A DNA stretch of 60,777 nt from Thiotrichales bacterium (lineage in GTDB: Bacteria > Pseudomonadota > Gammaproteobacteria > Thiomicrospirales > Thiomicrospiraceae): the NCBI GenBank assembly GCA_016936535.1, contig JAFGXP010000049.1, positions 1-60,777 of the forward strand, in the 5' to 3' direction. Position numbers and translations under genes: made by a program. Positions 2-19,420 of this stretch are shown one piece after another. Position 1 is the stretch's first letter, and each line of letters begins with the position of its first letter. Below the pieces are notes generated by a model. That model ran no database searches. It worked only from the letters and a program-made list of their open reading frames with translations, and was not told the DNA's origin.

Positions 2-694
2 CAAAAAGGGCGTACTGCGATTTACGGTTATGTCGTACCTGCCATTCGCGGTTGGTTGGTTTATCATTTCCACGATACCAGTGCATCCGCCAAGGTAAAG
101 CAAATTCACGGCATAAACGATAATCTTTACCTTAAAGAAGACGCCAGCAATCTTGCCGCGTTTCTTTATCGCCTTAAACAAGAATATGAATCCCATTACA
201 AACGCATTGTTAAAACCATTCAATTAGTTGCGCCGTTTTTTGGCGATTTTATCCTGCGACCTACCACCGGCAATGCCGAGAAGATTCAACTCGAATGGGT
301 CGAAAAAAATCAAGACACGCCGTTTACCGCCAGTGCTTTATCGGACGGCACGCTTAGGTTTATTTGTTTGGCAACGGTATTAATGCAACCAGATGAACTC
401 TGTCCGCCGACGATTTTAATTGACGAACCTGAGTTAGGCCTTCACCCTTATGCGATTACGGTTTTGGGTTCACTAATGCGCTCGGCTGCCGAACGCCATC
501 AGTTGATAATTTCAACTCAATCGGTCGAATTGCTCAACCAATTTGAAGCCGAAGATGTTATCGTCGTTGATAAAAAAGACGGCGCATCAACTTTTAAACG
601 ACTTAATCCAGATGAACTTAGCTCATGGCTAGAGGACTACAGCCTAGGTGAACTCTGGACTAAAAACCTTCTAGGCGGGAGACCGTTAAAATGA
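2..694 (+). CDS. AAA family ATPase, C-terminal part (5' end cut by window edge)
   Basis: The reading frame is open to the first base, so this is the last 230 residues of a longer ATP-binding protein; a TTG at 56 is internal, not a start. Visible are an ABC-type signature-like stretch (LSDGTLRF, about fragment residue 112) and a Walker B with D-loop (ILIDEPELGLHP, about 138), followed by IISTQS in the switch position. This is the AAA_21/AAA_15 type of SMC-like ATPase found in OLD-like and PARIS-like defence pairs. Its stop overlaps the ATG of the DUF4276 gene, so the two are probably translated together and work as a pair. The Walker A motif would lie upstream of the window. The family call is firm; the role in phage defence is inferred from partner and location. 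Confidence 0.85.
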   Translation, partial: QKGRTAIYGYVVPAIRGWLVYHFHDTSASAKVKQIHGINDNLYLKEDASNLAAFLYRLKQEYESHYKRIVKTIQLVAPFFGDFILRPTTGNAEKIQLEWVEKNQDTPFTASALSDGTLRFICLATVLMQPDELCPPTILIDEPELGLHPYAITVLGSLMRSAAERHQLIISTQSVELLNQFEAEDVIVVDKKDGASTFKRLNPDELSSWLEDYSLGELWTKNLLGGRPLK

Positions 695-1341
695 AGCGCG
701 TTTACGTGATGGTAGAAGGGCAAACCGAAGAAACCTTTGTGCGCGAAGTTTTGTATGAGCATTTTCTGAGAATCGGTATTTATATTGACGCCATTTTGGT
801 TGAAACCAAAAAGGGTTTTAAAGGTGGTCTGAGAAGCTACGGCAAAGTGAAGCCGCAGATTGTCCGCCAGTGCCGCGAAAAACAAACGGCTTGGGTGACA
901 ACGCTATTTGACCTCTATGGCTTGCCCAATGATTTTCCAGCTAAAGATAGTGATGCTTATGCGGGACTAGCAACAGGTCAACAAAAGGCAGTGTATTTGC
1001 AAACAGCCTTAGCGCAAGACCTAAACGAACGTAACTTTATTCCCAATTTGTTGGTGCATGAGTTTGAAGCGCTTTTATTTAGCAATGTGCAACCCTTTGC
1101 CGACTGGACAGACCACAAAAATGTGCAAGCCTTAGAGAAAATTGCAAAGTCTTTTCAAACCCCTGAAGACATTAACGACAGCCCGCAAACAGCACCCTCA
1201 AAACGCATTTCGCAACTCATGCCTGAATACGACAAAGTGGTACAGGGAACGCTGATTGCCAATGATATTGGACTGGATCAAATAAGAGCAAAATGTACGC
1301 ATTTTGATGGGTGGGTTCAGGTGCTGGAAAAACTTAATTAG
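691..1341 (+). CDS. DUF4276 family protein (TOPRIM-like partner of the upstream ATPase)
   Basis: This is a 216-residue protein with the hallmarks of DUF4276: an N-terminal strand followed by EGQTEE (residues 9-14), an acidic DLYG (about 74-77), and HEFEALLFS (about 123-131). The acidic residues at the ends of predicted strands resemble a TOPRIM/OLD-type metal site, so a nuclease role is plausible but not shown. The start overlaps the ATPase stop (ATGA), and such ATPase-DUF4276 pairs are common in defence islands. The arrangement parallels PARIS (AAA plus DUF4435), with the ATPase as likely sensor and this protein as likely effector; that division is inference. Confidence 0.85.
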   Translation: MKRVYVMVEGQTEETFVREVLYEHFLRIGIYIDAILVETKKGFKGGLRSYGKVKPQIVRQCREKQTAWVTTLFDLYGLPNDFPAKDSDAYAGLATGQQKAVYLQTALAQDLNERNFIPNLLVHEFEALLFSNVQPFADWTDHKNVQALEKIAKSFQTPEDINDSPQTAPSKRISQLMPEYDKVVQGTLIANDIGLDQIRAKCTHFDGWVQVLEKLN

Positions 1342-1363
1342 TTTTAGAATGGAGATGAGGGGT

Positions 1364-3370
1364 ATGCAAGCAAATATCAAGGGGTTGGTTGATCGATTAG
1401 AGCTTGGTAATTCAAAAGCAATGATGCCTTTATTCGAAGCTATATCTAATTCAATGGATGCAATTGAAGAGTGTGGCGATGGATATATTAATCATTCGAT
1501 TTTAATAGAAGTCTTTAGCCAGCAAGATCTTATAACAGAATCAGGCGATACATCTTTGGTCGTTGATGGATTTAAGGTTTTAGATGATGGTGTCGGTTTT
1601 ACTGATAAAAATACGCAATCCTTTCGAGAGGCTCATACTTTTTCAAAGATTTCTATTGGAGGAAAGGGTGTGGGACGATTTACCCTACTTAAGGTTTTCT
1701 CTGACGTTCATATAAGAAGTGTATTTGAGTGCGATGAAAAACATTGCCTTAGAGAGTTTGTCTTCTCTATTGAGAATGAATTAAAAGGTGCTGATAATGT
1801 ACAAGTGATTAATGAACCACGGACAACACAAGTCAGTGCTAGGCGGATTAACTCAAAGTATCAGAAAGGTTGGCCTAGTGATATTGAAACTATTGCTGAA
1901 AGAATAGTAACGCATTTCTTGATTCGTTTTGCTGCTCGTTCTTGCCCACCAATGAAATTAGAATCTAAAGGAATGGCAGAACTTGATTTGCATAAGTTTT
2001 TCAATTTAAAGATATTGAATCATATTCAAGAACAAACCTTTGAATTTGAGAAATACTTTTTTGGTCTTCAAGCTTATCGTCATAAAGATGGTCGTTCAAG
2101 ACATGTATTGCATTTATGTGCAAATGGGCGAGAGGTTATAACGATAAAATTACGTGACATTCTTCCTGAGTTACCAGATAAATTTACTGATGAGGACGGC
2201 AAGCCTTATACATTAATTGTTCTTGTTACTGGTGAATATTTGGATGCCAAATGCAATCTAGAAAGGACAAAAATTTCTTTTGCCTTAGATAATGATCTAG
2301 ATATTGAAGAAGGGCTTATTAATCAGGGGCAATTTTATCAAGAGGTGATGAATGTTTTGCGACCGCTGCTTGTGGATGATTTGAAGGCGACTAATGACGA
2401 AAAGATTGCTCAAATTGAGCGGTTTGTTGAGAACGCACCAGAATATCGAGCATTAATGAGTTCCCGCTATCAAGACTTGGTAAGGCAAAAGATTCAACCA
2501 GGGCTTAATGACGAAAAACTTGATGAGGCATTGCTTCATGTTCGTCGGGAGATTGAAGACGGTGTTCGTAAAGAACTAAGAGATGTTGCAGCATTATTCG
2601 AGAAGGAAACATTTGAACAGTACCAAGCGCGGTTCCAAGAGGTTGCAGAAAAAGCTAATGAAATAGGGAAAGCACAGCTTGCTTCCTATGTGGCGCATAG
2701 AAGAACAATTTTGGACTTGCTAAATAATAGCCTTAAAAAAAGTAGATCAGATGATAGATACCCACTTGAAAAGGTACTGCATAAGATGATTTTTCCAATG
2801 GGCGAAACCTCAAAAGATGTGTTTTTTGAACAGCAAAATTTATGGGTTATTGACGAAAGACTTTCTTATCACACTCTTCTAACCTCTGATAAAAAACTAA
2901 AAAGTATTCAGGGTTTAGAGGGAACATCTGGAAAAGAGCCGGATATTTTTGCTTTTTTTTACGACTCTCCTATTGGTTTAGCGGAAATGGATGGTTTGTC
3001 TGGTGGTGGAATTGTAATTATCGAGTTTAAACGCCCGGGTAGAGATGATTATGATAGAGATCCTGCTGACCAAGTTATCCAACGTTTTCGAGAGATTTCA
3101 GAAGGAAATGTTAAAAATATTGACGGGCGGATAGTTAACCCCGCAGGATTGCGCTTTACAGGTTACCTTATCGCTGACTTGACGCCTAGTTTACGTAAAC
3201 AAGTGTATGGTCGTTATGAGCAATCCACAGATAATGAAGGTTATTTTTCTTCACTATCGGGTGGGAATGGTTATATAGAAATTATTTCCTACGATAAGCT
3301 TATAAATGATGCGCTGAAAAGAAATCGTATTCTTTTTGATAAGCTAGGACTGCATAAAAGTTTACGTTAA
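1364..3370 (+). CDS. GHKL (MutL/MORC-like) ATPase with C-terminal PD-(D/E)XK nuclease-like domain
   Basis: The 668-residue protein opens with a GHKL ATP-binding fold: N-box EAISNSMDAIEE (about residues 25-36), LDDGVGF (about 73) and GGKGVGRF (about 100). The middle (about 370-480) is charged and probably helical. Near the C-terminus EPDIFAF (about 525) and IVIIEFKRP (about 551) give the D...ExK pattern of PD-(D/E)XK nucleases. In-frame starts exist at 1304, 1349, 1355 and 1364; 1364 is chosen because GGAG at 1351-1354 lies nine bases before it and the earlier ones overlap DUF4276 heavily. The gene is AT-rich compared with res or jetABCD. It sits 19 bases before an AIPR gene; GHKL ATPases paired with AIPR proteins occur in MZA-type defence. 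The ATPase call is firm; the nuclease is motif-based. Confidence 0.8.
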   Translation: MQANIKGLVDRLELGNSKAMMPLFEAISNSMDAIEECGDGYINHSILIEVFSQQDLITESGDTSLVVDGFKVLDDGVGFTDKNTQSFREAHTFSKISIGGKGVGRFTLLKVFSDVHIRSVFECDEKHCLREFVFSIENELKGADNVQVINEPRTTQVSARRINSKYQKGWPSDIETIAERIVTHFLIRFAARSCPPMKLESKGMAELDLHKFFNLKILNHIQEQTFEFEKYFFGLQAYRHKDGRSRHVLHLCANGREVITIKLRDILPELPDKFTDEDGKPYTLIVLVTGEYLDAKCNLERTKISFALDNDLDIEEGLINQGQFYQEVMNVLRPLLVDDLKATNDEKIAQIERFVENAPEYRALMSSRYQDLVRQKIQPGLNDEKLDEALLHVRREIEDGVRKELRDVAALFEKETFEQYQARFQEVAEKANEIGKAQLASYVAHRRTILDLLNNSLKKSRSDDRYPLEKVLHKMIFPMGETSKDVFFEQQNLWVIDERLSYHTLLTSDKKLKSIQGLEGTSGKEPDIFAFFYDSPIGLAEMDGLSGGGIVIIEFKRPGRDDYDRDPADQVIQRFREISEGNVKNIDGRIVNPAGLRFTGYLIADLTPSLRKQVYGRYEQSTDNEGYFSSLSGGNGYIEIISYDKLINDALKRNRILFDKLGLHKSLR

Positions 3371-3389
3371 GTGGAGGTTATAAAACGTT

Positions 3390-5195
3390 ATGGTGGCATT
3401 AAATACCGCATTTATGAGAGAGCTTAAACAAATCTTAGAAGAGCGTTTTGTTCCCTACTTGCGTCCTTTATTAGGAGTGCAGGGGAGTGTTGAAGATCGA
3501 AGAAAGAAACAAATTTCTCGTGCCTTTAGCGGTTTTGTTATCCATAAAAAGTTTGATATAGACCCAAGAACTGCAACTCAATTAGTTGTGGATGATTATG
3601 ATGACAATGGGATTGATGCCTTTTACTATTCAGATGACGAAAAAACGTTATATTTGATTCAGTCAAAGTTAAAAGAATCCGAAGCTTTTAATCAAGAAGA
3701 TGCTCTTAAGTTTTTAGTTGGCACACGGAAGTTATTGGATAAGGATTTTGATTCTTTTAACCAAAATGTTAAAGATCAAGAGCAAGTTATAGATCAGTGG
3801 TTAGATGAGTGTGAAGCGGTAAAGCTTTTGGTTGCTTATACTGGTGACGCTATTACACTTCACGCTCAGCAAGAATTATTAGACGGTATTCAATCTGAAA
3901 TTGATAATGGTGAAGAGTTACTAAAGAAAGAAATTGTTGAAATAGCTTCAGCGGATATTCAAATCTATTTAACTCAAGAGCATGGCTTTAAAAGAGTGAA
4001 TGAAAAACTCGTTATTGAACAGTTTAGAGTGGTTGAGCAGCCTAGAAAGGTTGTATATGGATTGGTTGCGTTAAACGATTTTGTAAATATTCATAACACA
4101 CATGGAAAAGCCCTCTTTGAAAAAAATATACGTTATTTTTTAGGTGCTGGTCGTCGAGGAGTGAACTCAGCAATTAAGGAGACGCTAGTACGTGAGCCAG
4201 AAAACTTTTCCTACTTGAATAACGGCGTGACTATGATTGCTGATAGCATTGGTCCTGGAAAAAGTATTAGAGGTAGTAAAACAACCAAAAAATATGAAGC
4301 TCTTGGTTTATCAGTTGTTAATGGTGCTCAGACAATTTCTTCTGTTGCACAGTTCGTGAATGAAAATCCAGGAACTGACATTACGCAAGCAAAAGTAGCT
4401 ATTACGCTCATACAATCAAATGGAGATGATTTTGATAAGAAGGTTACACGCGCTCGAAACCTGCAAAACCCTGTAGACTTGGCACATTTTGCCGCTCTAG
4501 ATGATTTACAGGAACGTCTACGAAAAGAAATTGCTGTTTTTGGCTTTGAATATCATTATCGCCCTCAGCAACTTGCTAGTGGCACGCCCAACTATTTTGA
4601 TATTTCAACTCTATCAAAAGCCTTGGCCTGCCTGTATAGAGATAATCGCTATCCTGCCAGATTGAAAACGGAACCGAGTCAGTTTGTAGATTTTGAATCG
4701 GATAGTTACAAATCAATATTCACTGCTGATTTATCGGGTGTTCAAGCAATAAATGCAGTAAAGGTTTTTACAAAAATCCAATCTTTATTGCTTACTCAAG
4801 AAAAATCACAGCCTAGTCCTGAAAGACTGGTTTATCGCCATTTTTTATATCCACTTGCAAGCTTAATTATGAAGCGTTTTAAAAGTAGGATCGAATCCGA
4901 CAGTATAATTTTGAATGCTCAAGTTGATCAGCTCTTGAGTGCTCCTTTTGATACTTTGCGTCAAGCAGTTCATGATGAATTTGTAAGTTTGCGAATGGGA
5001 AGTGCTCATCATTCATTTTTTAAGCGTGTCAGTGATACAGCTAAACTAATGCAATACATTGATATAAAACAACTTAATTTAAATGATGACTCTACTGTAC
5101 AGAGTTTAATAGGACGAACTAATGCTGCGGATTCCTCTAATAATGCTTTATCTAATTTCCTAGTTGGGAAGTTGCCACAATTACGAACAGAATAA
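3390..5195 (+). CDS. AIPR family abortive-infection protein with N-terminal nuclease-like motif
   Basis: This 601-residue protein carries the AIPR domain: RYFLGAGRRGVN (about residue 248), YLNNGVTMI (about 275) and VVNGAQTISS (about 309). Upstream of it, NGIDAFYY (about 70) followed by LIQSKLKE (about 90) reads as the GxD...QxK variant of the restriction-endonuclease fold seen in Mrr-like enzymes. AIPR proteins were first described in abortive infection phage resistance and occur in MZA-type systems. GGAGG at 3373-3377 precedes the ATG by 12 bases, a slightly long spacing. The gene is AT-rich like the GHKL gene before it, suggesting the two arrived together. It ends two bases before the methyltransferase gene, so one transcript is likely. 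The target and trigger are unknown. Confidence 0.85.
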   Translation: MVALNTAFMRELKQILEERFVPYLRPLLGVQGSVEDRRKKQISRAFSGFVIHKKFDIDPRTATQLVVDDYDDNGIDAFYYSDDEKTLYLIQSKLKESEAFNQEDALKFLVGTRKLLDKDFDSFNQNVKDQEQVIDQWLDECEAVKLLVAYTGDAITLHAQQELLDGIQSEIDNGEELLKKEIVEIASADIQIYLTQEHGFKRVNEKLVIEQFRVVEQPRKVVYGLVALNDFVNIHNTHGKALFEKNIRYFLGAGRRGVNSAIKETLVREPENFSYLNNGVTMIADSIGPGKSIRGSKTTKKYEALGLSVVNGAQTISSVAQFVNENPGTDITQAKVAITLIQSNGDDFDKKVTRARNLQNPVDLAHFAALDDLQERLRKEIAVFGFEYHYRPQQLASGTPNYFDISTLSKALACLYRDNRYPARLKTEPSQFVDFESDSYKSIFTADLSGVQAINAVKVFTKIQSLLLTQEKSQPSPERLVYRHFLYPLASLIMKRFKSRIESDSIILNAQVDQLLSAPFDTLRQAVHDEFVSLRMGSAHHSFFKRVSDTAKLMQYIDIKQLNLNDDSTVQSLIGRTNAADSSNNALSNFLVGKLPQLRTE

Positions 5196-5197
5196 AT

Positions 5198-6964
5198 ATG
5201 ACGAATAAAAAACAAAAACTGGAATTGACTTGGATTGGCAAGGATAAGCGGCCTAAGTTGGAGCCGCGGATTTTATTGGAAGACCCGAGTAAGTCTTATC
5301 ATGCCAAGCATAAGGTCACTGAAAATGATCTGTTTGATAATAAACTCATTTTTGGTGATAACCTGCTGGCTTTAAAGGCGTTGGAGCAAGGATACACAGG
5401 TAAAGTTAAATGTATTTATATTGATCCACCATTTAACACCGGCAGTGCCTTTACCCATTATGACGATGGCTTAGAGCACTCAATTTGGTTGGATTTGATG
5501 CGCAAGAGGATGGATATTCTTCACCGACTATTGGCGGAGGATGGTTGTATTTTTGTTCATTTGGATGATAACGAGTTAGATTATTTGAAGGTATTGATGG
5601 ATGAAGTTTTTATGCGAGAAAACTTTATCAATCGCATAACAATTGAGGCTCGTTCTCCATCGGCTTTTAGCACTGTTAATGCAGGTGTATTTAAGGCTTC
5701 TGAATACATATTGTGGTACGCAAAAAACAAGAAGGTCTTTACTCAACCGCAAAAACTGAGAGTTAGAAGGTCTCCTGATTATGCTTACAATAAATGGCTT
5801 TTAAATCCAGAGGATGATTGTGGAAGTTGGGAGTTTATTTCAATTCAAGAAGCTTTTGATAGTTATGGTAATACACGTTCTAGACGTCCAGATACTTTGT
5901 TAGAGTCCTTCAATAAGTTTATTGTTGAGAATTCACATAGGGTTTGTCGTTTGGCTAGTATTAGTGATGCAAAGGCGGGCGCAGAAATTGTTGCATTGAA
6001 GCAAGAATCTTTGAAATTGCGTGGTAAGGTTTTTTTGTTAGAAAGAGATTTATACGATGACGTCTATGTTTTAGATGGTCAACAAATAATTTTTTACTCT
6101 AAGAATGTTGTTGAGCTTGATGGTGAGTTATCTGCTTCATCTCCACTGACAAATATATGGACAGATGTTGCGTGGGAAGGAATCGCAGGAGAGGGTGGCG
6201 TAACCTTTAATCAGGGGAAAAAACCAGAACGACTTATAAAAAGGTGCTTGGAACTTTCCACATTGCCTGACGATTTGGTCTTAGACTCATTTGGCGGCTC
6301 CGGCACAACAGGCGCGGTGGCGCATAAAATGGGGCGGCGCTGGATTATGGTGGAATTGGGTGAACATTGTCATACTCATATTATCCCGCGTTTGCAAAAG
6401 GTGATTGATGGCACCGACCAGGGCGGTATTTCTAAAGCGGTGAATTGGCAAGGCGGTGGCGGTTTCCGCTATTACAAGGTGGCTCCATCTTTACTGGAAA
6501 AAGATCGCTGGGGTCAATGGATTATTAACCGCGAATACAATGCCGCTATGTTTGCCGAAGCCTTGTGTAAGCTGGAAGGCTTTACTTATGCGCCGTCGGA
6601 CACGGAGTTTTGGAACCAGGGATACTCCACCGAAAATGACCGCATCTATGTCACCACCCAATCGTTGATGCTTGAGCAATTACAAGCGATTAGCGAAGAG
6701 GTGGGCGCAAACCGCACCTTGCTGATTTGTTGCTCCGCTTTCCGCGCCAAGCCGGATCAGTTTGCGAATTTGACGCTGAAAAAAATCCCCAAAATGGTCC
6801 TCAATAAATGCGAATGGGCACATGATGACTATAGCCTCAATGTCGAAAACCTGCCGATGCAAGCGCCCGATGAAGTCATAGAAACAGCAACGCAAAAAAC
6901 CAAAAAAAACGCCCAAAAACAACCAGGCCTGCAGGGTTTGTTTGACGAAGAGGATGCAGAATGA
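5198..6964 (+). CDS. mod: Type III DNA methyltransferase (Mod), beta class
   Basis: The 588-residue protein has the catalytic DPPFNTG (about residue 77) before the AdoMet-binding FGGSGTTG (about 365), the beta-class order used by type III Mod subunits, which methylate adenine N6 and also read the target site. Between them lies a long variable stretch, the expected target recognition domain. That stretch (roughly 5640-6270) is clearly more AT-rich than the 3' part of the gene: 20 G+C in 5881-5940 against 37 in 6301-6360. This is consistent with a swapped specificity domain. No good ribosome site precedes 5198, so coupling to the AIPR stop is likely. The matching res gene is 4.2 kb downstream, after trlF and an AlbA-type gene. 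Confidence 0.9.
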   Translation: MTNKKQKLELTWIGKDKRPKLEPRILLEDPSKSYHAKHKVTENDLFDNKLIFGDNLLALKALEQGYTGKVKCIYIDPPFNTGSAFTHYDDGLEHSIWLDLMRKRMDILHRLLAEDGCIFVHLDDNELDYLKVLMDEVFMRENFINRITIEARSPSAFSTVNAGVFKASEYILWYAKNKKVFTQPQKLRVRRSPDYAYNKWLLNPEDDCGSWEFISIQEAFDSYGNTRSRRPDTLLESFNKFIVENSHRVCRLASISDAKAGAEIVALKQESLKLRGKVFLLERDLYDDVYVLDGQQIIFYSKNVVELDGELSASSPLTNIWTDVAWEGIAGEGGVTFNQGKKPERLIKRCLELSTLPDDLVLDSFGGSGTTGAVAHKMGRRWIMVELGEHCHTHIIPRLQKVIDGTDQGGISKAVNWQGGGGFRYYKVAPSLLEKDRWGQWIINREYNAAMFAEALCKLEGFTYAPSDTEFWNQGYSTENDRIYVTTQSLMLEQLQAISEEVGANRTLLICCSAFRAKPDQFANLTLKKIPKMVLNKCEWAHDDYSLNVENLPMQAPDEVIETATQKTKKNAQKQPGLQGLFDEEDAE

Positions 6965-7023: not shown

Positions 7024-7048
7024 AACTATTCGGAGTTTCCGAATAGTT
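7024..7048 (+). promoter_or_regulatory. Perfect 11-bp inverted repeat upstream of trlF
   Basis: AACTATTCGGA at 7024-7034 and its exact complement at 7038-7048 enclose a three-base loop (GTT). It lies in the 118-base gap between mod and trlF, 22 bases before the trlF ribosome site. No T-run follows, so it does not look like a standard terminator. It may be a transcript hairpin that sets trlF level or an operator; which one cannot be told from sequence. Confidence 0.6.
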
Positions 7049-7082
7049 GCATGATAATTTCTCAAAGCCAAGGAGCGAAATA

Positions 7083-9872
7083 GTGAGCAGGATTACACAG
7101 CATTTTCCAGGTTCTCGTTGGTGGAAATTTGATTTTCATACCCATACTCCCGCTTCATTAGACTACCGTGGTGATAAGGCAATTACAGCCGAAGCTTGGC
7201 TTCGTGATTACCGTAATGCTGGAATGGATGCTGTGATTGTCACAGATCACAATACAGGCAGTTGGGTTGATTCATTAAAAGCTGCGCTAGAGCAACTAAG
7301 ATCCCAAGATGAAATTTGGCGGGATTTTACGATTTTTCCGGGAATGGAGATTTCTTGTAATGGTGGTGTTCATCTTATTGCCATATTGGACACTGACCAA
7401 ACCAGTGCGGATATTGACGCTTTGCGCGGTGCAGTAGGGTACCAAGGTACTGCCGGGGATAGTGATGGAGTGACATCATTAAGTGTTGAACAGGTTATCG
7501 ACAAAATCCATGATATTGGTGGTATTGCTATTGCAGCTCACATAGATCAGCCAAAGGGGTTGCTCGAAAGCATTAAAGACCACAACACTCGTCTACCGAT
7601 TTTGCAGAAACTTGACGCAGTGGAGGTCATTGATAGTACCTATGCAGATTTGGCGTTGCTTGATGATAAACGGTTTTCTCATCTTGCGCGTGTGTTAGGT
7701 TCGGATAGTCATCACCCCAATAAGGTCGGGCGTGCTTATACGTGGATAAAATTATCTAAACTAAATTCAGATGGTTTGAAGTTGGCTTTGCTGGATAAAG
7801 AAGTGGCAATTAGACGCAGTGATGAGTCTGCTCAATCTCCGCAAACCTTTCCTAGCCATTGGATTCAGTCTTTAACACTTGAAAACCTGCACCTAAGACG
7901 TAATGGGCTTGGTTCTTTAATAATGGATTTTAATCCTGCCTACAATGCTGTGATTGGTGGACGAGGTAGCGGAAAATCAACCTTGGTTGAGTGTTTGCGT
8001 TTAACTTTAGCGCGCGATGGTGAATTGGATGCACTTGGTGATGAAAGCATCAAACGTAATTTTGAGGAGTTTAAACAAATCTATTCCACGCGTGATAAGC
8101 CGGGGATGATGCTTAATGAAACTAGGTTGATTGCGGAAGTTGTCAAAGGCTGTGGTAAGTTTGAGGAACGTTACCAGTATGTTTGGCAAAAAAATGCGTT
8201 TGGAAGTTTTGGCGTAGCGGTTATACGTTGGGACGGTTCAAAATGGCAAGAGACGGGCTTAAATGATCAGCAAGCAAGAGATTTATTCCCTGTTAAGGTA
8301 TTTAGCCAAAAACAAATTTTGGCATTGGCAAAAAATCCACAAAGTTTATTGGGTTACATTGATGACTCCATTCGTGAGCAAAAAGATGCTTGGCAAACTC
8401 AATTTGATCTGCTTAAACAAAACTTACTTGCTGCGAGATTGCGTGTTAGAGGGCTTAAAAATGAACTGAAGAAGAAGCCAGCAATGCAATTGGACTATCA
8501 GGAAGCGAGTCGTAAAGCTCAAGCCTTTTTGAATGCAAATTTTGGAGATTTATTAAAAAACTATCAGCGTGCAAATCAACAAAAAAGAGCGTTGGACGAT
8601 TTTTATCAATTATTGAGCAATGATATTGAAGCTTTACAGACTGGTGTAGAAGCTGCACAAAACTTGCCTTTAACGGGCGTAACGCAGTTTATTTTGGAAA
8701 CGCCCTCAGAAGAACAAGCATATAAAGCCGCGCTTGATATTAAAGGTCAACTAACTCAAGACTATCAAACGATTGTTGCTTTAGTTAATAAAATGAAAGC
8801 TAGCTTAGAACAGGGGGTGCAAACTCAATCCTCAAGTCAGTGGAACCTAGAAAATCAATCGGTTATTGATGCTTATATGCAAGAGACACAACGACTGAAA
8901 GAGCTTGGAATAGGAAGTGCGGGTGAAGCTGCGCAAGCTGTTGCTTTAGAAGATAGATTACGTAAACAATTGGGACAAATGCAGGCTCATGAGCAGGCGT
9001 TGACTGAAGCCGAAAACGAGGTGGGACAATCTGAAAAGTTGCTTACAGAACACAGAACGCGATTAACACAGATTCGTCAAGAATTTATAGATGATAAGTT
9101 GCAAGATAATGACTTGATTAAGGTTTCTTTGTGTTCAATGGGGGATGTGAAAGATGCGGTTAAAAAATTTAGAATTCTATTGAGGTTGCCAGAAAGCGGC
9201 TTTGAAGGGTCAATTTGGTCGGAGGATGAGAATGGGATACCTAATTCTGGTATTTTGGTTGACTTAGCTAATTCAAAAATGCCAGCTAGTCTAAATAGCT
9301 CTTCTCTATTTGATATGAAGGCCGCAATTTATAACAGAAATAAGCAGGTGCTTACTACTTCTTTGGATGGGCGATTGTTAAAGCGCCTTGAAACACTGAC
9401 AGACGAAGACTTTGATAGCCTAGCTTGGTGGTATCCAGAAGATGAGGTACTCCTAGAGTATCGTCCAGCAAGTAACAAGCCATGGAAGCCTTTAAATCAA
9501 GCCTCAGCCGGTCAAAAAACCGCAGCGATGTTATCGTTTTTGTTGGTGCAAAGTAATGAGCCTTTAATTCTCGATCAACCAGAAGATGATTTAGATAATG
9601 CCTTGGTTTCGGAATTGATTGTTGCACAGTTGCGAAAAAACAAGGCACATCGACAGCTCATTATCATCACGCATAATGCCAATATTGTTGTTAATGCAGA
9701 TGCCGAACAAGTTATTACTATGAAGTTTGACGGTCAAATTGGTGTGGATTCAAGTGGTGGACTACAGGAAACGCCTGTTAGGCAAGCTATTTGTCGAGTG
9801 ATGGAAGGCGGTGAGATTGCCTTTAAACAACGTTATCAGCGCATACTTAAAGACTTGGAAGTGGTTAGATGA
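7083..9872 (+). CDS. TrlF-like PHP-domain / SMC-type ATPase
   Basis: The N-terminal 270 residues form a PHP phosphoesterase domain: HTHTP (about residue 19), TDHN (about 54), AAHIDQP (about 152) and GSDSHHP (about 206) supply metal ligands. An ABC/SMC-type ATPase follows: Walker A GGRGSGKST (about 292), a long coiled-coil-like middle, the signature SAGQKT (about 807), Walker B LILDQPEDD (about 828) and IITHN (about 860). The GTG at 7083 is taken as start because AGGAG at 7071-7075 is seven bases ahead; an upstream in-frame TTG at 7047 lies inside an inverted repeat. Proteins of this build include TrlF and the ppl (PHP plus SMC ATPase) defence protein. Its place inside a type III RM locus suggests an extra effector. 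Substrate unknown. Confidence 0.85.
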   Translation: MSRITQHFPGSRWWKFDFHTHTPASLDYRGDKAITAEAWLRDYRNAGMDAVIVTDHNTGSWVDSLKAALEQLRSQDEIWRDFTIFPGMEISCNGGVHLIAILDTDQTSADIDALRGAVGYQGTAGDSDGVTSLSVEQVIDKIHDIGGIAIAAHIDQPKGLLESIKDHNTRLPILQKLDAVEVIDSTYADLALLDDKRFSHLARVLGSDSHHPNKVGRAYTWIKLSKLNSDGLKLALLDKEVAIRRSDESAQSPQTFPSHWIQSLTLENLHLRRNGLGSLIMDFNPAYNAVIGGRGSGKSTLVECLRLTLARDGELDALGDESIKRNFEEFKQIYSTRDKPGMMLNETRLIAEVVKGCGKFEERYQYVWQKNAFGSFGVAVIRWDGSKWQETGLNDQQARDLFPVKVFSQKQILALAKNPQSLLGYIDDSIREQKDAWQTQFDLLKQNLLAARLRVRGLKNELKKKPAMQLDYQEASRKAQAFLNANFGDLLKNYQRANQQKRALDDFYQLLSNDIEALQTGVEAAQNLPLTGVTQFILETPSEEQAYKAALDIKGQLTQDYQTIVALVNKMKASLEQGVQTQSSSQWNLENQSVIDAYMQETQRLKELGIGSAGEAAQAVALEDRLRKQLGQMQAHEQALTEAENEVGQSEKLLTEHRTRLTQIRQEFIDDKLQDNDLIKVSLCSMGDVKDAVKKFRILLRLPESGFEGSIWSEDENGIPNSGILVDLANSKMPASLNSSSLFDMKAAIYNRNKQVLTTSLDGRLLKRLETLTDEDFDSLAWWYPEDEVLLEYRPASNKPWKPLNQASAGQKTAAMLSFLLVQSNEPLILDQPEDDLDNALVSELIVAQLRKNKAHRQLIIITHNANIVVNADAEQVITMKFDGQIGVDSSGGLQETPVRQAICRVMEGGEIAFKQRYQRILKDLEVVR

Positions 9873-11122
9873 ATATTGACACTTTATTAAATAAAATTCG
9901 GCTTGGTGAAGACTCTAGGCTGGAGTTTAAAAGAGTGGTGATGCGTAGCGATACCAGAGTAGAAGCGCCACATGCGGGTAGTCTAGCCGATGAATTGGCG
10001 GCGATGGCGAATGCGCAAGGCGGTTTATTGGTGCTGGGCGTTGATGATAAAAGTAAACAAGTATTGGGTATACCTTATTCTTCACTTGATACCGTCGAAA
10101 AGTGGTTGTCTGAGATTTGTCAAGATAAGGTTAGCCCCCCGTTAGAAATTCTTACTGAACATGTTGAGTTGCCAGATGAGTCTGCACAGATGAAACCTGT
10201 GATTGTTGTGACAGTTCCTAAAAGTTTGATGGTGCATAAAAGCCCAAATGGTTACTTTAAACGCGTTGCGCACGCTAAGCGTGAAATGTCGCCAGATGTT
10301 TTAGCTAGATTATTTCAACAGCGTAGCCAAACACGTTTGATTCGATTTGATGAGCAACCAGTGCCAACAACAAGTATTGATGATGCGGATGCTTTACTTG
10401 TCCGCCCTTTTTTAAGAGAAGGGGAAGGAGATACGGCGCGTCAACTTGGACGTTTACATTTATTAAGTGTAGATGATGAAGGTCGTCAGGTACTTTCTAT
10501 CGCAGGTGTTCTTCTGTGTACTCAGCGGCCAACGCAATGGCTGCCTCACGCGTACATTCAAGCGGTAGCTTATCGCGGTGAAACCAATGATCCGCAGTAT
10601 CAATTGGACGCGAAAGATTTCGATGGCCCGATTGATCGCCAGATTTGGGATGCGTTTCATTTTGTGCAACGGCATATGCAAGTACCCGCCAAAAAAGATT
10701 TAGGGCGAGTGGATTATCCCCAGTACAGTTTGCGCGCGGTATTTGAGGCATTGGTCAATGCGGTGGCACATCGGGATTATTCTTTGTCACAGGGGCGCAT
10801 TCGTTTGCATTTGTTTAGTGATCGGTTGGAGCTGTATTCGCCGGGTTCGTTGCTTAACACCATGACGGTGGAGTCGATGCAAATGATGTCGATGCCGCGT
10901 AACGAGGTGATTTCCAGTTTGTTTGCTCGGTATTTTTCGGTCCAAGAATCGGGGTTGGGTCGTTCTTATTTAATGGATCGTCGGGGTGCGGGGGTGGATG
11001 TCATTATTAACGAAAGTACCGCTTTGTCGGGTATCAAACCGGTTTATGAAAATCTTGCCGATATGGAATTGCGTTTAACGATTTATGCCGCAAAACCACC
11101 CGCTGAGGAGGGCGAAGTATGA
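9869..11122 (+). CDS. AlbA_2 (Schlafen-like) domain ATP-binding protein
   Basis: The 417-residue protein begins with an AlbA_2 / divergent AAA_4 (Schlafen-like) domain: LEFKRVV near residue 18 and a following LVLGVDD stretch. The C-terminal third holds a GHKL-type region, FEALVNAVAHRDYS (about 291-304) and GRIRLHLFSDRLELYSPG. Such proteins are often annotated as ATP-binding transcriptional regulators, but they also recur beside type III RM genes. Both ends overlap neighbours by ATGA (trlF upstream, res downstream), so it is translationally coupled within the operon. Composition changes from AT-rich to GC-richer near 10480 inside the gene, a possible recombination point. It could be a regulator or a structural part of the restriction complex. 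Confidence 0.8.
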   Translation: MNIDTLLNKIRLGEDSRLEFKRVVMRSDTRVEAPHAGSLADELAAMANAQGGLLVLGVDDKSKQVLGIPYSSLDTVEKWLSEICQDKVSPPLEILTEHVELPDESAQMKPVIVVTVPKSLMVHKSPNGYFKRVAHAKREMSPDVLARLFQQRSQTRLIRFDEQPVPTTSIDDADALLVRPFLREGEGDTARQLGRLHLLSVDDEGRQVLSIAGVLLCTQRPTQWLPHAYIQAVAYRGETNDPQYQLDAKDFDGPIDRQIWDAFHFVQRHMQVPAKKDLGRVDYPQYSLRAVFEALVNAVAHRDYSLSQGRIRLHLFSDRLELYSPGSLLNTMTVESMQMMSMPRNEVISSLFARYFSVQESGLGRSYLMDRRGAGVDVIINESTALSGIKPVYENLADMELRLTIYAAKPPAEEGEV

Positions 11123-13812
11123 GCAACCAACGCATTTTAAAGAACATTAGCGGGCGTTTGAGTTTGCGTGCGCCGCAGGAAGAATCTTTGCAGGCATTGG
11201 CACAGGCCTTAGAAAATGCGCCGGATATTTTGCATAGTCAACGTGATTTAGAAGATTTATTGGGCAAGTTGAGTGCGCAGTTTCCAAACTTGAGCGATTT
11301 TGAGCGCGATTTCCCGTCTTTGTGTTTTGCCTTGGCAACAGGGGTGGGGAAAACACGTTTAATGGGCGCGTTTGTCGCTTATTTGCATTTGGCGTATGGC
11401 GTGCGCAATTTCTTTGTATTGGCACCAAACCTGACCATCTATAACAAACTGATTGAGGATTTTGATAATCCGGCTTCGCCTAAGTATGTGTTTAAAGGCA
11501 TGACGGAGTTTGTGCTGAATCGCCCGATTGTGATTACCGGCGACAATTACGAACACCGTGGCGCTCAAGTTGGCACGGATATGTTTGGACAAGCGCAAGA
11601 AATCCGCATCAATATTTTTAACATCGCCAAAATCACCTCCGAATCGCGCGGTGGTAAAGCGCCGCGCATTAAGCGTATGTCGGAATATCTGGGCGACAGT
11701 TATTTTAATTATCTGGCTGAATTGGATGATTTGGTGTTGCTGATGGACGAATCGCATCGCTACCGCGCCAGTGCCGGTATGCGGGCGATTAATGAATTAA
11801 AACCGCGCTTGGGCTTGGAGCTGACGGCCACGCCTTTTACCGAATCATCTAAAGGGCCGGTGCCATTCAAAAATGTGGTGGTGGATTATCCTTTGGCGCG
11901 GGCGATGGACGATGGCTTTGTGAAAGAGCCGGCCGTGGCGACGCAGCGGAATTTTAATGCTAGCCAATATACGCCTGAAGCGTTGGAGCGCATTAAGCTG
12001 GAAGACGGCATTCGCTTACATGAAGCCACTAAGTTGGAACTGTTTACCTATGCCAAACAACAGGGAGTAAAACAGGTAAAGCCCTTTATGTTGGTGATTG
12101 CGCGTGACACGACGCATGCAGCGAACTTAAAAGAACTGATTGAAACGCAACTGTTTGCCGGACGTTATAAAGATAAAGTGATTCAGGTGGATTCGAGTAG
12201 TTCGGAAGATGAAACCATTGCGCGTTTGTTGGCGGTGGAAAGTGTTGATGAGCCGACCGAAATTGTGATTCATGTGAATATGCTCAAAGAAGGTTGGGAT
12301 GTCACCAATCTTTATACCATTGTGCCCTTGCGAGCCGCGAATGCACGCACTTTGATTGAGCAGTCCATTGGGCGTGGTTTGCGCTTGCCTTACGGAAAAC
12401 GCACTGGGGTGGAAGCAGTCGATCGCTTAACCATTGTTGCGCATGATCGTTTCCAAGAAATTGTGGATGAAGCCAATAATCCAAATAACCCTTTGCGGAT
12501 GAAGCAGGTGATTTTGGACGCGGATGATTCGGCTGAAAAACGCGATAGTGTGCAGGTTTCGTCTAATCTGGATGGGCTGATAAGCGGGCAGTATTTACAA
12601 AGTGCGCGCGGTGAAACCTATTCACAGCATCTTTCAGTGGAGGAGCCTGTTGCTATTTTCAACGGTGAAACCGAAAGACAAGTGGCGCAGGTGGCGTTAC
12701 AAGTCTTGCAGACCTATCAGCATCAACCGCAATTGGCACCGACCACCCAGGCATTAAGCCGTGCGGACATTCAACAGCAGGTGTATCAAACGGTTTCCGA
12801 AAAACTACAAGGCCAACAACAGTCGCTATTGGAAGACGAAGAGCATCTTCAACTCGAAGAGGTGATTGCCAAAACCACACAATTATTGATTGCGCAGACG
12901 ATTGATATTCCGCGCATTTTGGTGCAACCGATTGGTGAAGTGACTTATGGGTACCAGCCGTTTTCGGTGGATTTGAGTGGATTGAATTTGAATCCGAGTA
13001 ATCGGGATTTGGTCTTGCAAAGTTTGCAGACGAATCAGCAAAGTACCTTGGCTGCTGAACAAAGTAGAAAATACCAGCGCTTAGAGGATTATGTCGTCGA
13101 GCATCTCGTCGATTTTGATGATATTTCTTACGACGAACATGGCGAATTGGTTTATGACCTCGTTGGTCAAGTGGTGCGTTATTTCAAAGAGGCCAAGTCC
13201 TTTAGTGAGGATGAATTGAACAATATTTTCTTTGGCTTTGCCAAGCAAATTGCCGCCAATATCCATGCTCAGATGGCCGAGCATTTTTGGGAAAAGGCGA
13301 CGGGTTATGAAGTCAAAATTACCGCCGGGTTTATGCCCCTAAAGCAGCCTACCTTTAGTTTTGACGGCAAACAAATTCATAACCTATATGACACGGTCGC
13401 CGATAAGAGCAAAATAAAGTCGATGTTGTTTGGCGGCTTTAGCAAGTGTTTGTATCCGGTGCAAAAATTTGATTCGGATACCGAGCGCACCTTTGCCAAG
13501 ATGTTGGAGCGCCAAGCGATTAAATGGCTCAAACCGGTTTCTGGTCAGTTTCAGATTTTTTATAAAGAGGGTGTGGAGCACCGCGAATATCTGCCGGATT
13601 TTGTGGCTGAGTTTGAAGATCGCATTTTGATGGTTGAAACCAAAGCGCGTAATGAAATGACCGATGCCATCGTGTTGGCAAAAAAAGAGGCCGCAGAAAA
13701 ATGGTGTCAACAGGCTTCTGAACATGCGTTGAAGCATGGCGCTAAAGTGTGGATCTATAAACTCATTGCCCATGACCAAGTGCAAGAACAGATGGCGGTG
13801 CTAGATTTTTAA
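11119..13812 (+). CDS. res: Type III restriction enzyme helicase-nuclease (Res)
   Basis: The 897-residue protein is an SF2 translocase: Walker A ATGVGKT (about residues 73-79), DESH box (about 210), TATPF (about 236), GWDVTN and the motif VI stretch QSIGRGLRLP (about 415). Near the C-terminus YLPDF (about 823) and VETKAR (about 838) give an intact PD-(D/E)XK endonuclease site. With Mod this makes a complete type III restriction enzyme that moves along DNA by ATP hydrolysis and cuts unmethylated sites. The start overlaps the AlbA-type gene's stop. Mod and res are normally adjacent; here two genes intervene. The gene is GC-richer than trlF (34 G+C in 11641-11700), matching the 3' end of mod. 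Confidence 0.9.
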   Translation: MSNQRILKNISGRLSLRAPQEESLQALAQALENAPDILHSQRDLEDLLGKLSAQFPNLSDFERDFPSLCFALATGVGKTRLMGAFVAYLHLAYGVRNFFVLAPNLTIYNKLIEDFDNPASPKYVFKGMTEFVLNRPIVITGDNYEHRGAQVGTDMFGQAQEIRINIFNIAKITSESRGGKAPRIKRMSEYLGDSYFNYLAELDDLVLLMDESHRYRASAGMRAINELKPRLGLELTATPFTESSKGPVPFKNVVVDYPLARAMDDGFVKEPAVATQRNFNASQYTPEALERIKLEDGIRLHEATKLELFTYAKQQGVKQVKPFMLVIARDTTHAANLKELIETQLFAGRYKDKVIQVDSSSSEDETIARLLAVESVDEPTEIVIHVNMLKEGWDVTNLYTIVPLRAANARTLIEQSIGRGLRLPYGKRTGVEAVDRLTIVAHDRFQEIVDEANNPNNPLRMKQVILDADDSAEKRDSVQVSSNLDGLISGQYLQSARGETYSQHLSVEEPVAIFNGETERQVAQVALQVLQTYQHQPQLAPTTQALSRADIQQQVYQTVSEKLQGQQQSLLEDEEHLQLEEVIAKTTQLLIAQTIDIPRILVQPIGEVTYGYQPFSVDLSGLNLNPSNRDLVLQSLQTNQQSTLAAEQSRKYQRLEDYVVEHLVDFDDISYDEHGELVYDLVGQVVRYFKEAKSFSEDELNNIFFGFAKQIAANIHAQMAEHFWEKATGYEVKITAGFMPLKQPTFSFDGKQIHNLYDTVADKSKIKSMLFGGFSKCLYPVQKFDSDTERTFAKMLERQAIKWLKPVSGQFQIFYKEGVEHREYLPDFVAEFEDRILMVETKARNEMTDAIVLAKKEAAEKWCQQASEHALKHGAKVWIYKLIAHDQVQEQMAVLDF

Positions 13813-13854: not shown

Positions 13855-15333
13855 TTGGATTATTTTCATTTAAGTCAATTACGCAAAACGCATCCGGCTT
13901 GGCGGTTATTGTGTGCTGAGCAGGCGCCTTTGGTAATGAGTTTTTTGCATAGGATGTTTATCGAACCGAATGTACGCAGTCTATTGCAGTCGGAGTTGAT
14001 ACTCAAATTGGAAGATTTTCTCTATCAACTGAGGCAGGAAGTGGAGGATGAGGACGCTTTTCCCAAGTCCGCTTATGCTTATCTTGAAGACTGGGCGCAA
14101 AACGATAAAGGTTGGTTGCGTAAGTTCTATCCCCTTGAGGCCGAAGAGGCTGCTTATGATTTAACACCTGCTACCGAAAAGGCGATTGCGTGGCTGCAGA
14201 GTTTGCAAAACAAATCGTTTATCGGCACTGAATCACGCTTGCTAACCTTGTTTGACCTGCTAAAACAAATTGCCTCAGGGACAGAGGAATCCGCCGAAAA
14301 TCGCATAGCGGAGCTTAAAAAACAACGCGCGGAGCTGGATGCTCAAATTGCCGTGATCGAAAAAGGCGATTGGGCGGTGATGGACGACAGTGGTGTTAAA
14401 GAACGTTTTATGCAGTTTGATCGAGTGGCGCGTGAATTATTGGGCGATTTTCGGCAGTTGGAGCAGAATTTTCGTGATCTTGATCTGTCTGTACGTGAAA
14501 CGATTGCGACCTGGGAAGGTTCTAAGGGAGCCTTATTGGAGCAGATTTTTGCAGAACAGGACGTGTTGGCGGATTCGGATCAAGGTAAAAGTTTCCAAGC
14601 ATTTTGGCGCTTTTTGATGTCCTCACAAAGTCAACAGGAGTTGGAAGCCTTGTTGGCCAAGGTGTTTGCACTCCCGCCGGTTATGCAGTTGGAGCCCGAT
14701 AGGCGTTTGCGAAAGGTGCATTACGACTGGCTGCAAGCCGGCGAACAGACGCAACGTATGGTGCAAAAACTGTCATCGCAATTGCGTCAGTTTCTCGACA
14801 AACAGGCTTGGATGGAAAATAAGCGGTTATTGCAGCAATTGGATAGCGTATTGCATCAGGCGGTGGATTTAAAAGGTGAGATTCCGGAAAGCTTGAATTT
14901 ACCGAAACCTTTCGCTGCCTTTATGCAGCTGGAACTGCCGAAGTTTGATTTGAACTTTCCGATGGAACGCAGCTTGTTTCGTCCTCCTTTACTGCAGGAT
15001 CTTAGTGTTCAAGTGGAAGCAGATTCAGGGCAAGCGGTGGATGTGTCTGCGCTATTTGAAGAGGTATTTGTCGATGAACTGGTGTTAAAAGAACAGATTA
15101 GCCAGTTATTACAGTCCAGGCGTCAAGTGAATTTACAGGATGTTTTGACGGCCTTTCCCTTGCAGTTGGGCGTAGCAGAACTGGTCGGTTATTTGTCGAT
15201 TGCCAGTCAAAATGATGTGGATGCGCCTTGGCAAGCCTTGGTGGATGATACGCATCCGCAGTTGCTGCATTGGCAGGATCTTAGCGGCAAAGAGCACCAA
15301 GCCTGGGTGCCGAATATGATTTTTACCCGTTAG
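13855..15333 (+). CDS. jetA: Wadjet subunit JetA (DUF3375, kleisin)
   Basis: A 492-residue DUF3375 protein with an N-terminal helical domain (RKTHPAWRLL near residue 10) and a coiled-coil-like segment around residues 145-170. JetA is the MukF-like kleisin that bridges the SMC heads of Wadjet, a complex that extrudes small circular DNA loops and cleaves them. The start is a TTG with AGAGAAG at 13844-13850; there is no closer ATG that keeps the conserved N-terminus, so low-level initiation is possible. The gap from res is only 42 bases, so jetABCD may be read through from the type III operon. Order jetA-B-C-D fits type I Wadjet. Confidence 0.9.
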   Translation: MDYFHLSQLRKTHPAWRLLCAEQAPLVMSFLHRMFIEPNVRSLLQSELILKLEDFLYQLRQEVEDEDAFPKSAYAYLEDWAQNDKGWLRKFYPLEAEEAAYDLTPATEKAIAWLQSLQNKSFIGTESRLLTLFDLLKQIASGTEESAENRIAELKKQRAELDAQIAVIEKGDWAVMDDSGVKERFMQFDRVARELLGDFRQLEQNFRDLDLSVRETIATWEGSKGALLEQIFAEQDVLADSDQGKSFQAFWRFLMSSQSQQELEALLAKVFALPPVMQLEPDRRLRKVHYDWLQAGEQTQRMVQKLSSQLRQFLDKQAWMENKRLLQQLDSVLHQAVDLKGEIPESLNLPKPFAAFMQLELPKFDLNFPMERSLFRPPLLQDLSVQVEADSGQAVDVSALFEEVFVDELVLKEQISQLLQSRRQVNLQDVLTAFPLQLGVAELVGYLSIASQNDVDAPWQALVDDTHPQLLHWQDLSGKEHQAWVPNMIFTR

Positions 15334-15356
15334 TAAATGATGGATTGGGGGGCTGA

Positions 15357-16013
15357 ATGTTAGAAGCGTTTTCACCAGAAGCCGATAATGCATCAGATGA
15401 ATTATCGAGGGTGTTGATTCATTTGTTGAAAGGCATCGTTTATCGCGACGAGCAGGAAGCTTTATGGCAAAGTTTGATCAAACGGCAAAGTCAGGTCAAA
15501 GAATATATCCAGGAGCTGGGTTTGGCGCTGGTGATTTTTGAAGACGAAGGCTTTGCTTGGTTGAAAAACCGTGAAACTGAGAGTGCAGATGAAGATGAAG
15601 ATGCCTTGCCGAAACTGGTTTCGCGCCGACCTTTGAGTTATGCCTTGAGTTTATTGCTGGCATTGTTACGCAAGCAGTTATTGTTGTTTGATGCGCAGTC
15701 CGGCGAGGGGCGTTTGGTCTTACGATTTGACGAAATGGTTGAACTCATGCAGGCCTATTTACCCAGTGGCACCAATGAAGTGAAATGGCGCGATCAAATC
15801 GTCGTTCAGGTGCAAAAAGCCGTTGAAATGGGTTTTTTGAAAAAATTAAAAACGACCGTTGAAAAGCAGGAAGCGCAATATGAAGTGCGGCGTATTCTGA
15901 TTGCGTTTATTGATGCGCAGTGGCTAGGGGAGTTTGAGGTGCGGTTGCAGGCCTATCGTGATTATGCGCAGGGTGGTGAACTGTTGGATTCTGGGACGGA
16001 GGAATCCGTATGA
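15357..16013 (+). CDS. jetB: Wadjet subunit JetB (DUF4194, MukE-like)
   Basis: A 218-residue DUF4194 protein, equivalent to the MukE/kite subunit that binds the JetA kleisin. It has an N-terminal helical domain, an acidic patch (ESADEDEDA, about residues 75-83) and a C-terminal winged-helix-like segment ending in VRRILIAFIDAQW. Its length fits the family. The stop overlaps the jetC start (ATGATGG), which points to coupled translation and fixed stoichiometry. Family and operon position make the call firm. Confidence 0.9.
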   Translation: MLEAFSPEADNASDELSRVLIHLLKGIVYRDEQEALWQSLIKRQSQVKEYIQELGLALVIFEDEGFAWLKNRETESADEDEDALPKLVSRRPLSYALSLLLALLRKQLLLFDAQSGEGRLVLRFDEMVELMQAYLPSGTNEVKWRDQIVVQVQKAVEMGFLKKLKTTVEKQEAQYEVRRILIAFIDAQWLGEFEVRLQAYRDYAQGGELLDSGTEESV

Positions 16014-19000: not shown

Positions 19001-19420
19001 GAAGATGATAGCGAATTCGAGCATTATTCCGATTCGGCCGGCAAATCCGGGGGCCAGAAAGAGAAGTTGGCTTACACCGTTTTGGCAGCGAGTTTGGCTT
19101 ATCAGTTTGGCTTGGAGTGGGGGGAAGTCAAATCGCGCTCCTTCCGTTTTGTGGTGATCGACGAAGCCTTCGGTCGCGGTTCCGATGATTCGGCACGTTT
19201 CGGGTTGGAATTGTTTAAACAGTTGAATCTGCAACTGTTGGTGATTACGCCGAAGCAGAAAATCCATGTGATCGAGCCCTATGTATCGCATGTCGGTTTT
19301 GTCAGCAATCCCGAAGGACATCAGTCGCAATTACGCACCCTGAGCATTGATGAACATTTGGCGGAAAAAGCCAGACGTCAGGAGTTGCAGGTTAAAATTC
19401 GTATGGTAAACGCTGAATGA
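16010..19420 (+). CDS. jetC: Wadjet subunit JetC (SMC/MukB-like ATPase)
   Basis: This 1136-residue SMC motor has Walker A GDIGSGKST (about residues 50-58), a very long coiled coil rich in Gln, Leu and Glu with a central hinge region (about 480-620), the ABC signature SGGQKEK (about 1013) and Walker B VVIDEAFGRGSDD (about 1048). In Wadjet, JetC dimers hydrolyse ATP to extrude DNA loops and deliver plasmid DNA to the JetD nuclease. All motifs needed for ATP hydrolysis are present and no frameshift is seen. The gene overlaps jetB at its start and jetD at its end (ATGA). SbcC/RecN-type proteins share the motifs, but the neighbours decide the identity. Confidence 0.93.
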   Translation: MMESGLLDFADDNQLAGFRLQRLEVYNWGTFDKKVWTLVLNGQNTLLTGDIGSGKSTLVDAVTTLLVPAHRIAYNKAAGAEAKERNLRSYVMGYYRSTRSETGAKQEALRDHNAYSVILGVFYNEGFDQWVTLAQVFWLKEGQNQPAKLYVTADSDLNIVEHFSDFGSDIRQLRKRLRELENTEVFDQYAPYAGAFRRRFGLHNDQALELFHQTVSMKQVGNLTDFVREHMLEQGDSEAQVEALIVHFDDLNRAHELVLKAKRQIEFLAPMVEDGQNHQAVQMQIAEQEAAREALTGFFALQKLSLLHKRQQNLQKQLNKLQQKIEVLNEQKRLQQLQRDDLQQAIFGAGGDRLTKLTQQLAEAEREKSKCLQKDQAYQQLLASLSLAKVANKADFLQRQDQILESLHVLRAEQGEVQNAQQELNFQAREQNEQLKTLDQELSSLRQRQNNIDERQIQIRRSLCEALGAEEAELPFIGELLQVREEDQVWEGSIERILHNFALSLLVPESLYAKVSEWVERTRLQGRLVYYRVQEELKNPPGLMDSHPHSLVRKLEIKTDSEFYPWVLAQLIRRFNYACCEDLVAFRREKQAVTLQGQVKSGDQRHEKDDRRALNDRRFFVLGWSNQQKIASLEKQAEQLLSAIETVQTRVEAYQHRLTALNGQIESANKLSVYQDYADLDWQRWARQIDAWLAEKVELETTHDLLRSLQQQLETLQTQMQQTEDDLDERKREQSRRSRDLEVCEDDLNATSQRIESERNEGRFTESLQNLLQSWQQQWQLALAVQVEHIDGKQTEMRLKVQDALDAARKRAERLRDKINKAISEFRHAYPEETAELSADLSGLNEYAQRLAQLQEDDLPRFEQKFKEQLNQNAINQMSHFKISLKKAQQEIRERIDKINLSLADIDYNSGRFIRLELMQNPDQEIKTFYQDLDACVEGSLTASEDSPYAEAKFLQVKALVDRFQGRDGLTELDSKWTRKVTDVRYFFQFAASERWREDDSEFEHYSDSAGKSGGQKEKLAYTVLAASLAYQFGLEWGEVKSRSFRFVVIDEAFGRGSDDSARFGLELFKQLNLQLLVITPKQKIHVIEPYVSHVGFVSNPEGHQSQLRTLSIDEHLAEKARRQELQVKIRMVNAE

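Follow-up and report, generated by a model that had tools for sequence, protein, structure and literature searches.

The GHKL-AIPR gene pair and its type III neighbours

The window analysed here is the whole of contig C22, 60,777 bases of the 2.12-Mb draft genome, in 49 contigs, of a Thiotrichales bacterium. Near its start it carries a gene for a GHKL ATPase-nuclease of 668 amino acids (P0001, paraMORC3/VcSduA type; 1364..3370, forward strand) and a gene for an AIPR/AbiU protein of 601 amino acids (3390..5195, forward strand), both intact and separated by the 19 bases counted in an earlier sequence-only reading, which had taken them for a compact, MZA-like two-gene system. We consider it probable that the pair belongs instead to a type III restriction-modification (R-M) island and does not form a minor defence system of its own. 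AIPR regularly accompanies the modification and restriction genes Mod and Res, and the GHKL protein appears to be a portable Shedu-type effector, an optional operon member whose position differs between the two cassette lineages that have it.

The AIPR gene was correctly named in that reading, as its product matches PF10592 (E 1.4e-38, residues 243-531, 133.8 bits against a Pfam cut-off of 25) and PADLOC AbiU (2.4e-40 over residues 40-555). The type III locus that the pair was said to abut begins 2 bases past the AIPR gene with the methylase Mod (5198..6964, forward strand; DPPF at 76 and FGGSG at 365; PF01555 2.9e-42, PADLOC MTase_III 3.2e-209) and extends to the helicase-nuclease Res (11119..13812, forward strand; TGVGKT 74, DESH 210, YLPDF 824 and VETK 839; PF04851 2.7e-23, PADLOC REase_III 6.6e-202), so that both subunits are present with their catalytic motifs. 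Type III enzymes cleave between two head-to-head asymmetric sites. The genes are tightly packed: from the HEC-01B-type gene upstream of the pair through JetA downstream of Res, the intergenic gaps are 22, 19, 2, 82, -4, -4 and 42 bases. The reported AT-richness of the pair was borne out, with a GC content of 0.371 for the GHKL gene and 0.364 for the AIPR gene, compared with 0.467 in Res and 0.475 over 30-60 kb. The AT-rich block (window 1200-6200) covers both genes and the first half of Mod, and the composition changes near Mod residues 268-335, between the DPPF and FGGSG motifs.

The helicase said to be missing from the pair is indeed missing from this contig but not from the genome, as an SNF2 gene adjoining coaE lies at C23:1-1926. 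Its product is 64-66% identical to the SNF2 proteins of GHKL-bearing cassettes in other genomes, 61-62% to those of two GHKL-less cassettes and 51-52% to the others. The reading frame of the first gene of the window, of HEC-01A type, is open at base 1, its 5' part lost to the contig edge, and we infer that a contig break has split the SNF2 gene from the rest. The full order is then likely to be SNF2 helicase, HEC-01A/B, GHKL-nuclease, AIPR, Mod, Ppl, AlbA_2 and Res. The C23 SNF2 protein also matches PADLOC DrmD at 664 bits, as it would if the locus were a relative of DISARM with a DrmD-like SNF2 gene. This we regard as very improbable: MZB/DUF1998 (PF09369), the DrmB hallmark, gave 0 matches in the host genome against a match in 8 of 14 control genomes, and the methylase and restriction genes here are of type III.

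Predicted nuclease domains of the GHKL and AIPR proteins

Residues 1-340 of P0001 (1364..2383, forward strand) form an ATPase module in which an S5-type transducer domain follows the GHKL domain, and the model of this N-terminus matches Hsp90, GyrB, MutL and topoisomerase VI-B, that is, the GHL fold. The ATPase motifs recognized earlier are all present, namely an N-box (E25/N29), DxGxG (D74-x-G76-x-G78) and GGKGVGRF (G99-G-K-G-V-G104-R105), as is the C-terminal D...ExK nuclease motif, with D497, D527, E554-x-K556 and Q570 (E554-F-K556 at 3023..3031, forward strand, and its partner acid D527 at 2942-2944). E25, N29, D74, G76, G78, G99, G104 and R105, together with E469, D497, D527, E554, K556 and Q570 of the nuclease half, are identical in 59/59 aligned full-length rows. 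These rows, window included, are the 22 of alignment A2 (the window, 4 of 20 close loci, 14 plasmid and 3 genome rows) and 37 rows from the 42 viral loci, of which 4 were set aside because of stops, Ns or strand and 1 because of length. The residues of the motifs named above are also invariant in a 19-row alignment of close relatives. For P0001 itself, Pfam, PADLOC and NCBIfam gave no relevant match at the limits used (0 PADLOC families at E<=0.01, one, unrelated, at E<=1, and no MZA model), and HATPase_c, at the loose limit of E<=1, matched 19 of the 22 A2 members (best E 1.1e-6), P0001 not among them.

The C-terminus of P0001 (residues 430-668; 2651..3367, forward strand) is predicted to be a Shedu-like PD-(D/E)XK nuclease domain. 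This half is poorly modelled, with residues 433-548 under pLDDT 50, and the likeness comes from profile comparison: hhalign aligned it with the Shedu C-terminal domain at probability 73 (P 3.7e-6, 196 columns, ExK and Q in register), with five column-shuffled controls staying at or below 0.1 and three other-domain controls at or below 0.5. Pfam SduA_C matched one of the 22 A2 members (E 0.16), and hhalign against a single Shedu sequence gave probability 2.9. P0001 shares both architecture and E-D-ExK motif with paraMORC3, described as a GHKL and S5 module with a C-terminal restriction-endonuclease (RE)-fold nuclease, whose genes stand in R-M neighbourhoods or alone (Iyer, Abhiman and Aravind 2008, PMC2292703). 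The published description of VcSduA, a GHKL-Shedu protein of Vibrio cholerae in which mutation of either E27 or K557 abolishes defence (PMC12137116), reveals the same architecture and Shedu-like C-terminus, and its spacing of 530 between these residues compares with 531 between the N-box E and the ExK K of P0001 (501-558, median 529, among the 59 rows); the two are likened through that description. P0001 is predicted to be catalytically self-contained and is optional in its operon.

The AIPR protein was modelled with a mean pLDDT of 89.4. Its N-terminal domain (residues 17-198; 3438..3983, forward strand) adopts in the model a FokI/MspJI/AspBHI-like PD-(D/E)XK fold with a D..(E/Q)xK site, D72/D76..Q91-x-K93, placed ahead of two adjacent strands and at their end. 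The D..QxK motif proposed there earlier (G-I-D76 and Q91-S-K93) is well conserved in alignment A4, with D76 in 45/45 rows, Q91 in 44/45 and K93 in 33/45. The counts are lower in an earlier unselected set of 39 rows (33/39, 32/39 and 28/39), which reflects loss of the motif in part of the AIPRs; L090, L092-L094 and L096-L098 keep the core motifs without the N-terminal site, and the nuclease is therefore not universal in the family. The core (residues 215-361; 4032..4472, forward strand) carries conserved NNG (277-279), NGxQT (311-315) and NxQN (357-360) motifs and has a ParB/SspE-type match that is weaker than that of the N-domain and seen by structure comparison. The model thus joins a restriction-endonuclease-like domain to a domain that is weakly ParB-like and probably senses nucleotide, so that a nucleotide-dependent switch on DNA would probably license its cutting. 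SspE and GmrSD likewise carry a ParB-like domain beside a nuclease domain. AIPR differs from SspE, GmrSD and DndB in its conserved NGxQT and in its nuclease, which stands at the N-terminus and resembles FokI/MspJI instead of HNH. These three are ParB-fold NTP-switch restriction or regulatory proteins (in part after PMC12704722).

The sequence-only interpretation is supported in part, P0001 and AIPR each having a candidate nuclease domain. That the pair is a kind of MZA we regard as very improbable. MZA is reported (Gao et al. 2020) to combine a GHKL-class ATPase and an AIPR protein, and these superficial classes are the same here. However, the AIPR protein matches MzaE weakly (E 7.8e-11, 51.7 bits), far below the cut-off of 1050, P0001 matches no MZA model, and the pair is probably part of a larger type III cluster.

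AbiU1/AIPR is described as an abortive-infection family often found with R-M systems and linked to type III, and a coupling of immunity to suicide has been proposed for this context (PMC3506569). The AIPR protein here, encoded 2 bases before Mod, might accordingly be a suicide effector that kills the cell once Mod/Res has been blocked by anti-restriction proteins of a phage. We think this unlikely, since the same source assigns the family a HEPN N-domain, whereas the model here has a restriction-endonuclease-like alpha/beta domain. The present locus further differs from the described AIPR and type III pairing by its GHKL nuclease and by the DrmD-like SNF2 helicase. The model speaks against the earlier HEPN assignment, for this branch at least, and offers a testable two-domain mechanism for a widespread, unexplained family.

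Recurrent cassettes and the place of the GHKL gene

Close GHKL relatives (60-70% identity) were found at 20 genome loci, in two of which a contig end truncates the gene. Within 8 kb of the gene, Mod occurs at 10 of these loci, Res at 10, SNF2 at 9 (fragments only in L002 and L012), AIPR at 7, RhuM at 3 and Ppl at 2, and the pair thus recurs in other genomes, as the sequence-only reading required. The common order in cluster analysis is SNF2-AIPR-GHKL-Mod-Res (the L006 AIPR was found by tblastn), and this five-gene cassette is present in strains of Thauera, Variovorax, Undibacterium and Pseudorhodoferax.

AIPR genes directly before Mod were also found in cassettes with no GHKL gene in view. Their products are 47-52% identical to the window AIPR in L026 (Escherichia coli) and L069-L072, 40% in L112 (a viral contig) and 30% in L073. 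SNF2 lies upstream of AIPR and Res downstream in L026, L070-L073 and L112, the plain order SNF2-AIPR-Mod-Res holding for L070, L072, L073 and L112 and an extra gene being present in L071 (RhuM) and L026 (Abi_2); L069 is a 3.6-kb contig on which AIPR-Mod alone is visible. Because SNF2-AIPR-Mod-Res recurs without it, the GHKL gene is optional and AIPR is part of the Mod/Res cassette.

In the trees, the window AIPR (98/99) and Res (91/98) group with the GHKL-less cassettes, and the GHKL gene precedes AIPR in the window but follows it in the other lineage. It therefore seems that either the GHKL gene entered these cassettes twice or AIPR was exchanged. The GHKL tree covers type III-linked rows only, whereas in the Mod tree the two lineages are intermingled; the window Mod groups with members of both (100/100) and the cassette is thus a mosaic.

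A challenge to membership of the island comes from more distant kin. GHKL relatives of about 25-35% identity lie in the 40 listed of 57 plasmid records, and a broad alignment found 42 viral loci. AIPR, SNF2 and Res are all absent from the stretches examined (0/14 plasmid, 0/6 phylum-genome and 0/42 viral loci); a distant Mod match occurs at a single viral locus. Around the 14 annotated plasmid genes the neighbours vary and include insertion sequences and toxin-antitoxin or Abi genes, and on two plasmids (L023 and L106) the GHKL gene is the last of a type I R-M operon. In addition, VcSduA defends as a single gene and apparently directly, its growth curves being consistent with restriction that spares the cell (PMC12137116), whereas P0001 is encoded inside a type III operon. 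These observations weigh against our interpretation and would favour a wholly independent, VcSduA-type gene in a defence island with no functional link to AIPR or Mod/Res, a possibility that we rate as somewhat unlikely. Within the clade of P0001 itself, the gene stands inside the operon between AIPR and Mod at 7 of the 20 loci and near Mod and Res at 10, and two cassette lineages carry it at different positions; this repeated placement would favour cooperation. Together with the tight gene packing, the SNF2 gene in the same genome and the conserved GHKL residues, the recurrent cassette supports the pair as part of the type III island.

In such an island, Mod would mark host DNA as self, while Res and the SNF2 translocase would patrol and move along unmarked DNA. 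AIPR would then probably cut DNA under a nucleotide-dependent switch of its core, as its model suggests, and two GHKL subunits, by analogy with VcSduA and GHL ATPases, would close as an ATP-driven clamp round invading DNA; the closed dimer would activate its C-terminal Shedu-like nucleases, as proposed for VcSduA. AIPR or the GHKL protein may also make use of Mod's mark. A bolder and rather doubtful extension is that the whole island works as a single composite restriction machine. It would have three kinds of DNA-gripping motor, namely the Res and SNF2 translocases, the GHKL clamp and a clamp formed by the ParB-like AIPR, each with its own nuclease or able to summon one, and all would learn self from non-self through one Mod methylase. 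In that case AIPR would be a nucleotide-switch endonuclease of ParB fold coupled to the type III R-M enzyme, and paraMORC3 would be brought in by it as a loop-trapping nuclease.

The elements themselves were known before, namely paraMORC3, GHKL-Shedu and the association of AIPR with type III R-M. paraMORC proteins were tied to restriction systems in 2008, and the portion consulted of that paper names AIPR as common in R-M operons (Figure 2 legend) and describes no SNF2-AIPR-GHKL-Mod-Res order in its text, although its Figure 2 may show one (PMC2292703). In the literature searched, mostly without subscription papers, we met neither this cassette nor the two-domain reading of AIPR. One single-gene paraMORC-type member stops phages, and natural cassettes with and without the GHKL gene reduce the question of cooperation with R-M enzymes to a simple subtraction.

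Accessory genes and mobile contexts

The first two genes of the window, both on the forward strand, are a candidate defence pair encoding a HEC-01A-type AAA ATPase (2..694; PADLOC HEC-01A 9.1e-110, residues 5-228 on profile 141-362 of 363) and a HEC-01B-type DUF4276 protein (691..1341; PF14103 3.2e-57, PADLOC HEC-01B 1e-83). Neither HEC-01A/HEC-01B nor JetC was found within 8 kb at any of the 20 close GHKL loci. A complete type I Wadjet system (JetABCD, 13855-20577) lies downstream of Res and is followed by an asparagine synthase-like gene. In a relative genome (G428), Wadjet is kept behind a broken Res, with JetA-C 93-97% identical and the matched part of JetD 70%.

The interval between Mod and Res behaves as an insertion slot. 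In the window (7047-11122) it holds two accessory genes on the forward strand, for a Ppl/TrlF-family PHP-SMC-like ATPase (7047..9872; NCBIfam TrlF_fam_ATP 1.2e-176, 590 bits against a cut-off of 350; PADLOC Ppl 1.4e-144) and a Schlafen/AlbA_2 protein with a RecG-C-type HATPase (9869..11122; PF04326 4.7e-17, PF13749 6.2e-16). Elsewhere it holds RhuM in three loci and a YhcG/DUF1016 nuclease in one (L012 12846-14060, L004 11892-12935, L007 11678-12730 and L011 11693-12766).

Among the GHKL-less cassettes, that of the E. coli chromosome (L026 4089-14634) comprises a MAD1-annotated HTH gene, SNF2, Abi_2, AIPR, Mod and Res; a 453-base stretch of its AIPR gene has a match in 19 of 5426 E. coli genomes, the context being read for one. 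L070 (5707-8990) has two tandem Mod genes in one cassette, perhaps with two specificities. The SNF2-AIPR-Mod-Res cassette of L112 (3123-11149) lies on a viral contig of 16.8 kb, and such cassettes may therefore travel on phage-like elements.

Other R-M classes also adjoin GHKL genes. In L014 (10035-12743), an MmeI-type restriction-modification enzyme follows a close GHKL relative, and on a Vibrio fluvialis plasmid (L023 7619-11013) a type I R-M operon ends with a Shedu gene and then directly the GHKL-Shedu gene, a Salinivibrio plasmid having a similar operon without the Shedu gene. Two GHKL loci (L009 7099-7914 and L019 7079-7897) share an upstream gene for a protein of about 271 amino acids, which in L009 had no Pfam match at E<=0.01.

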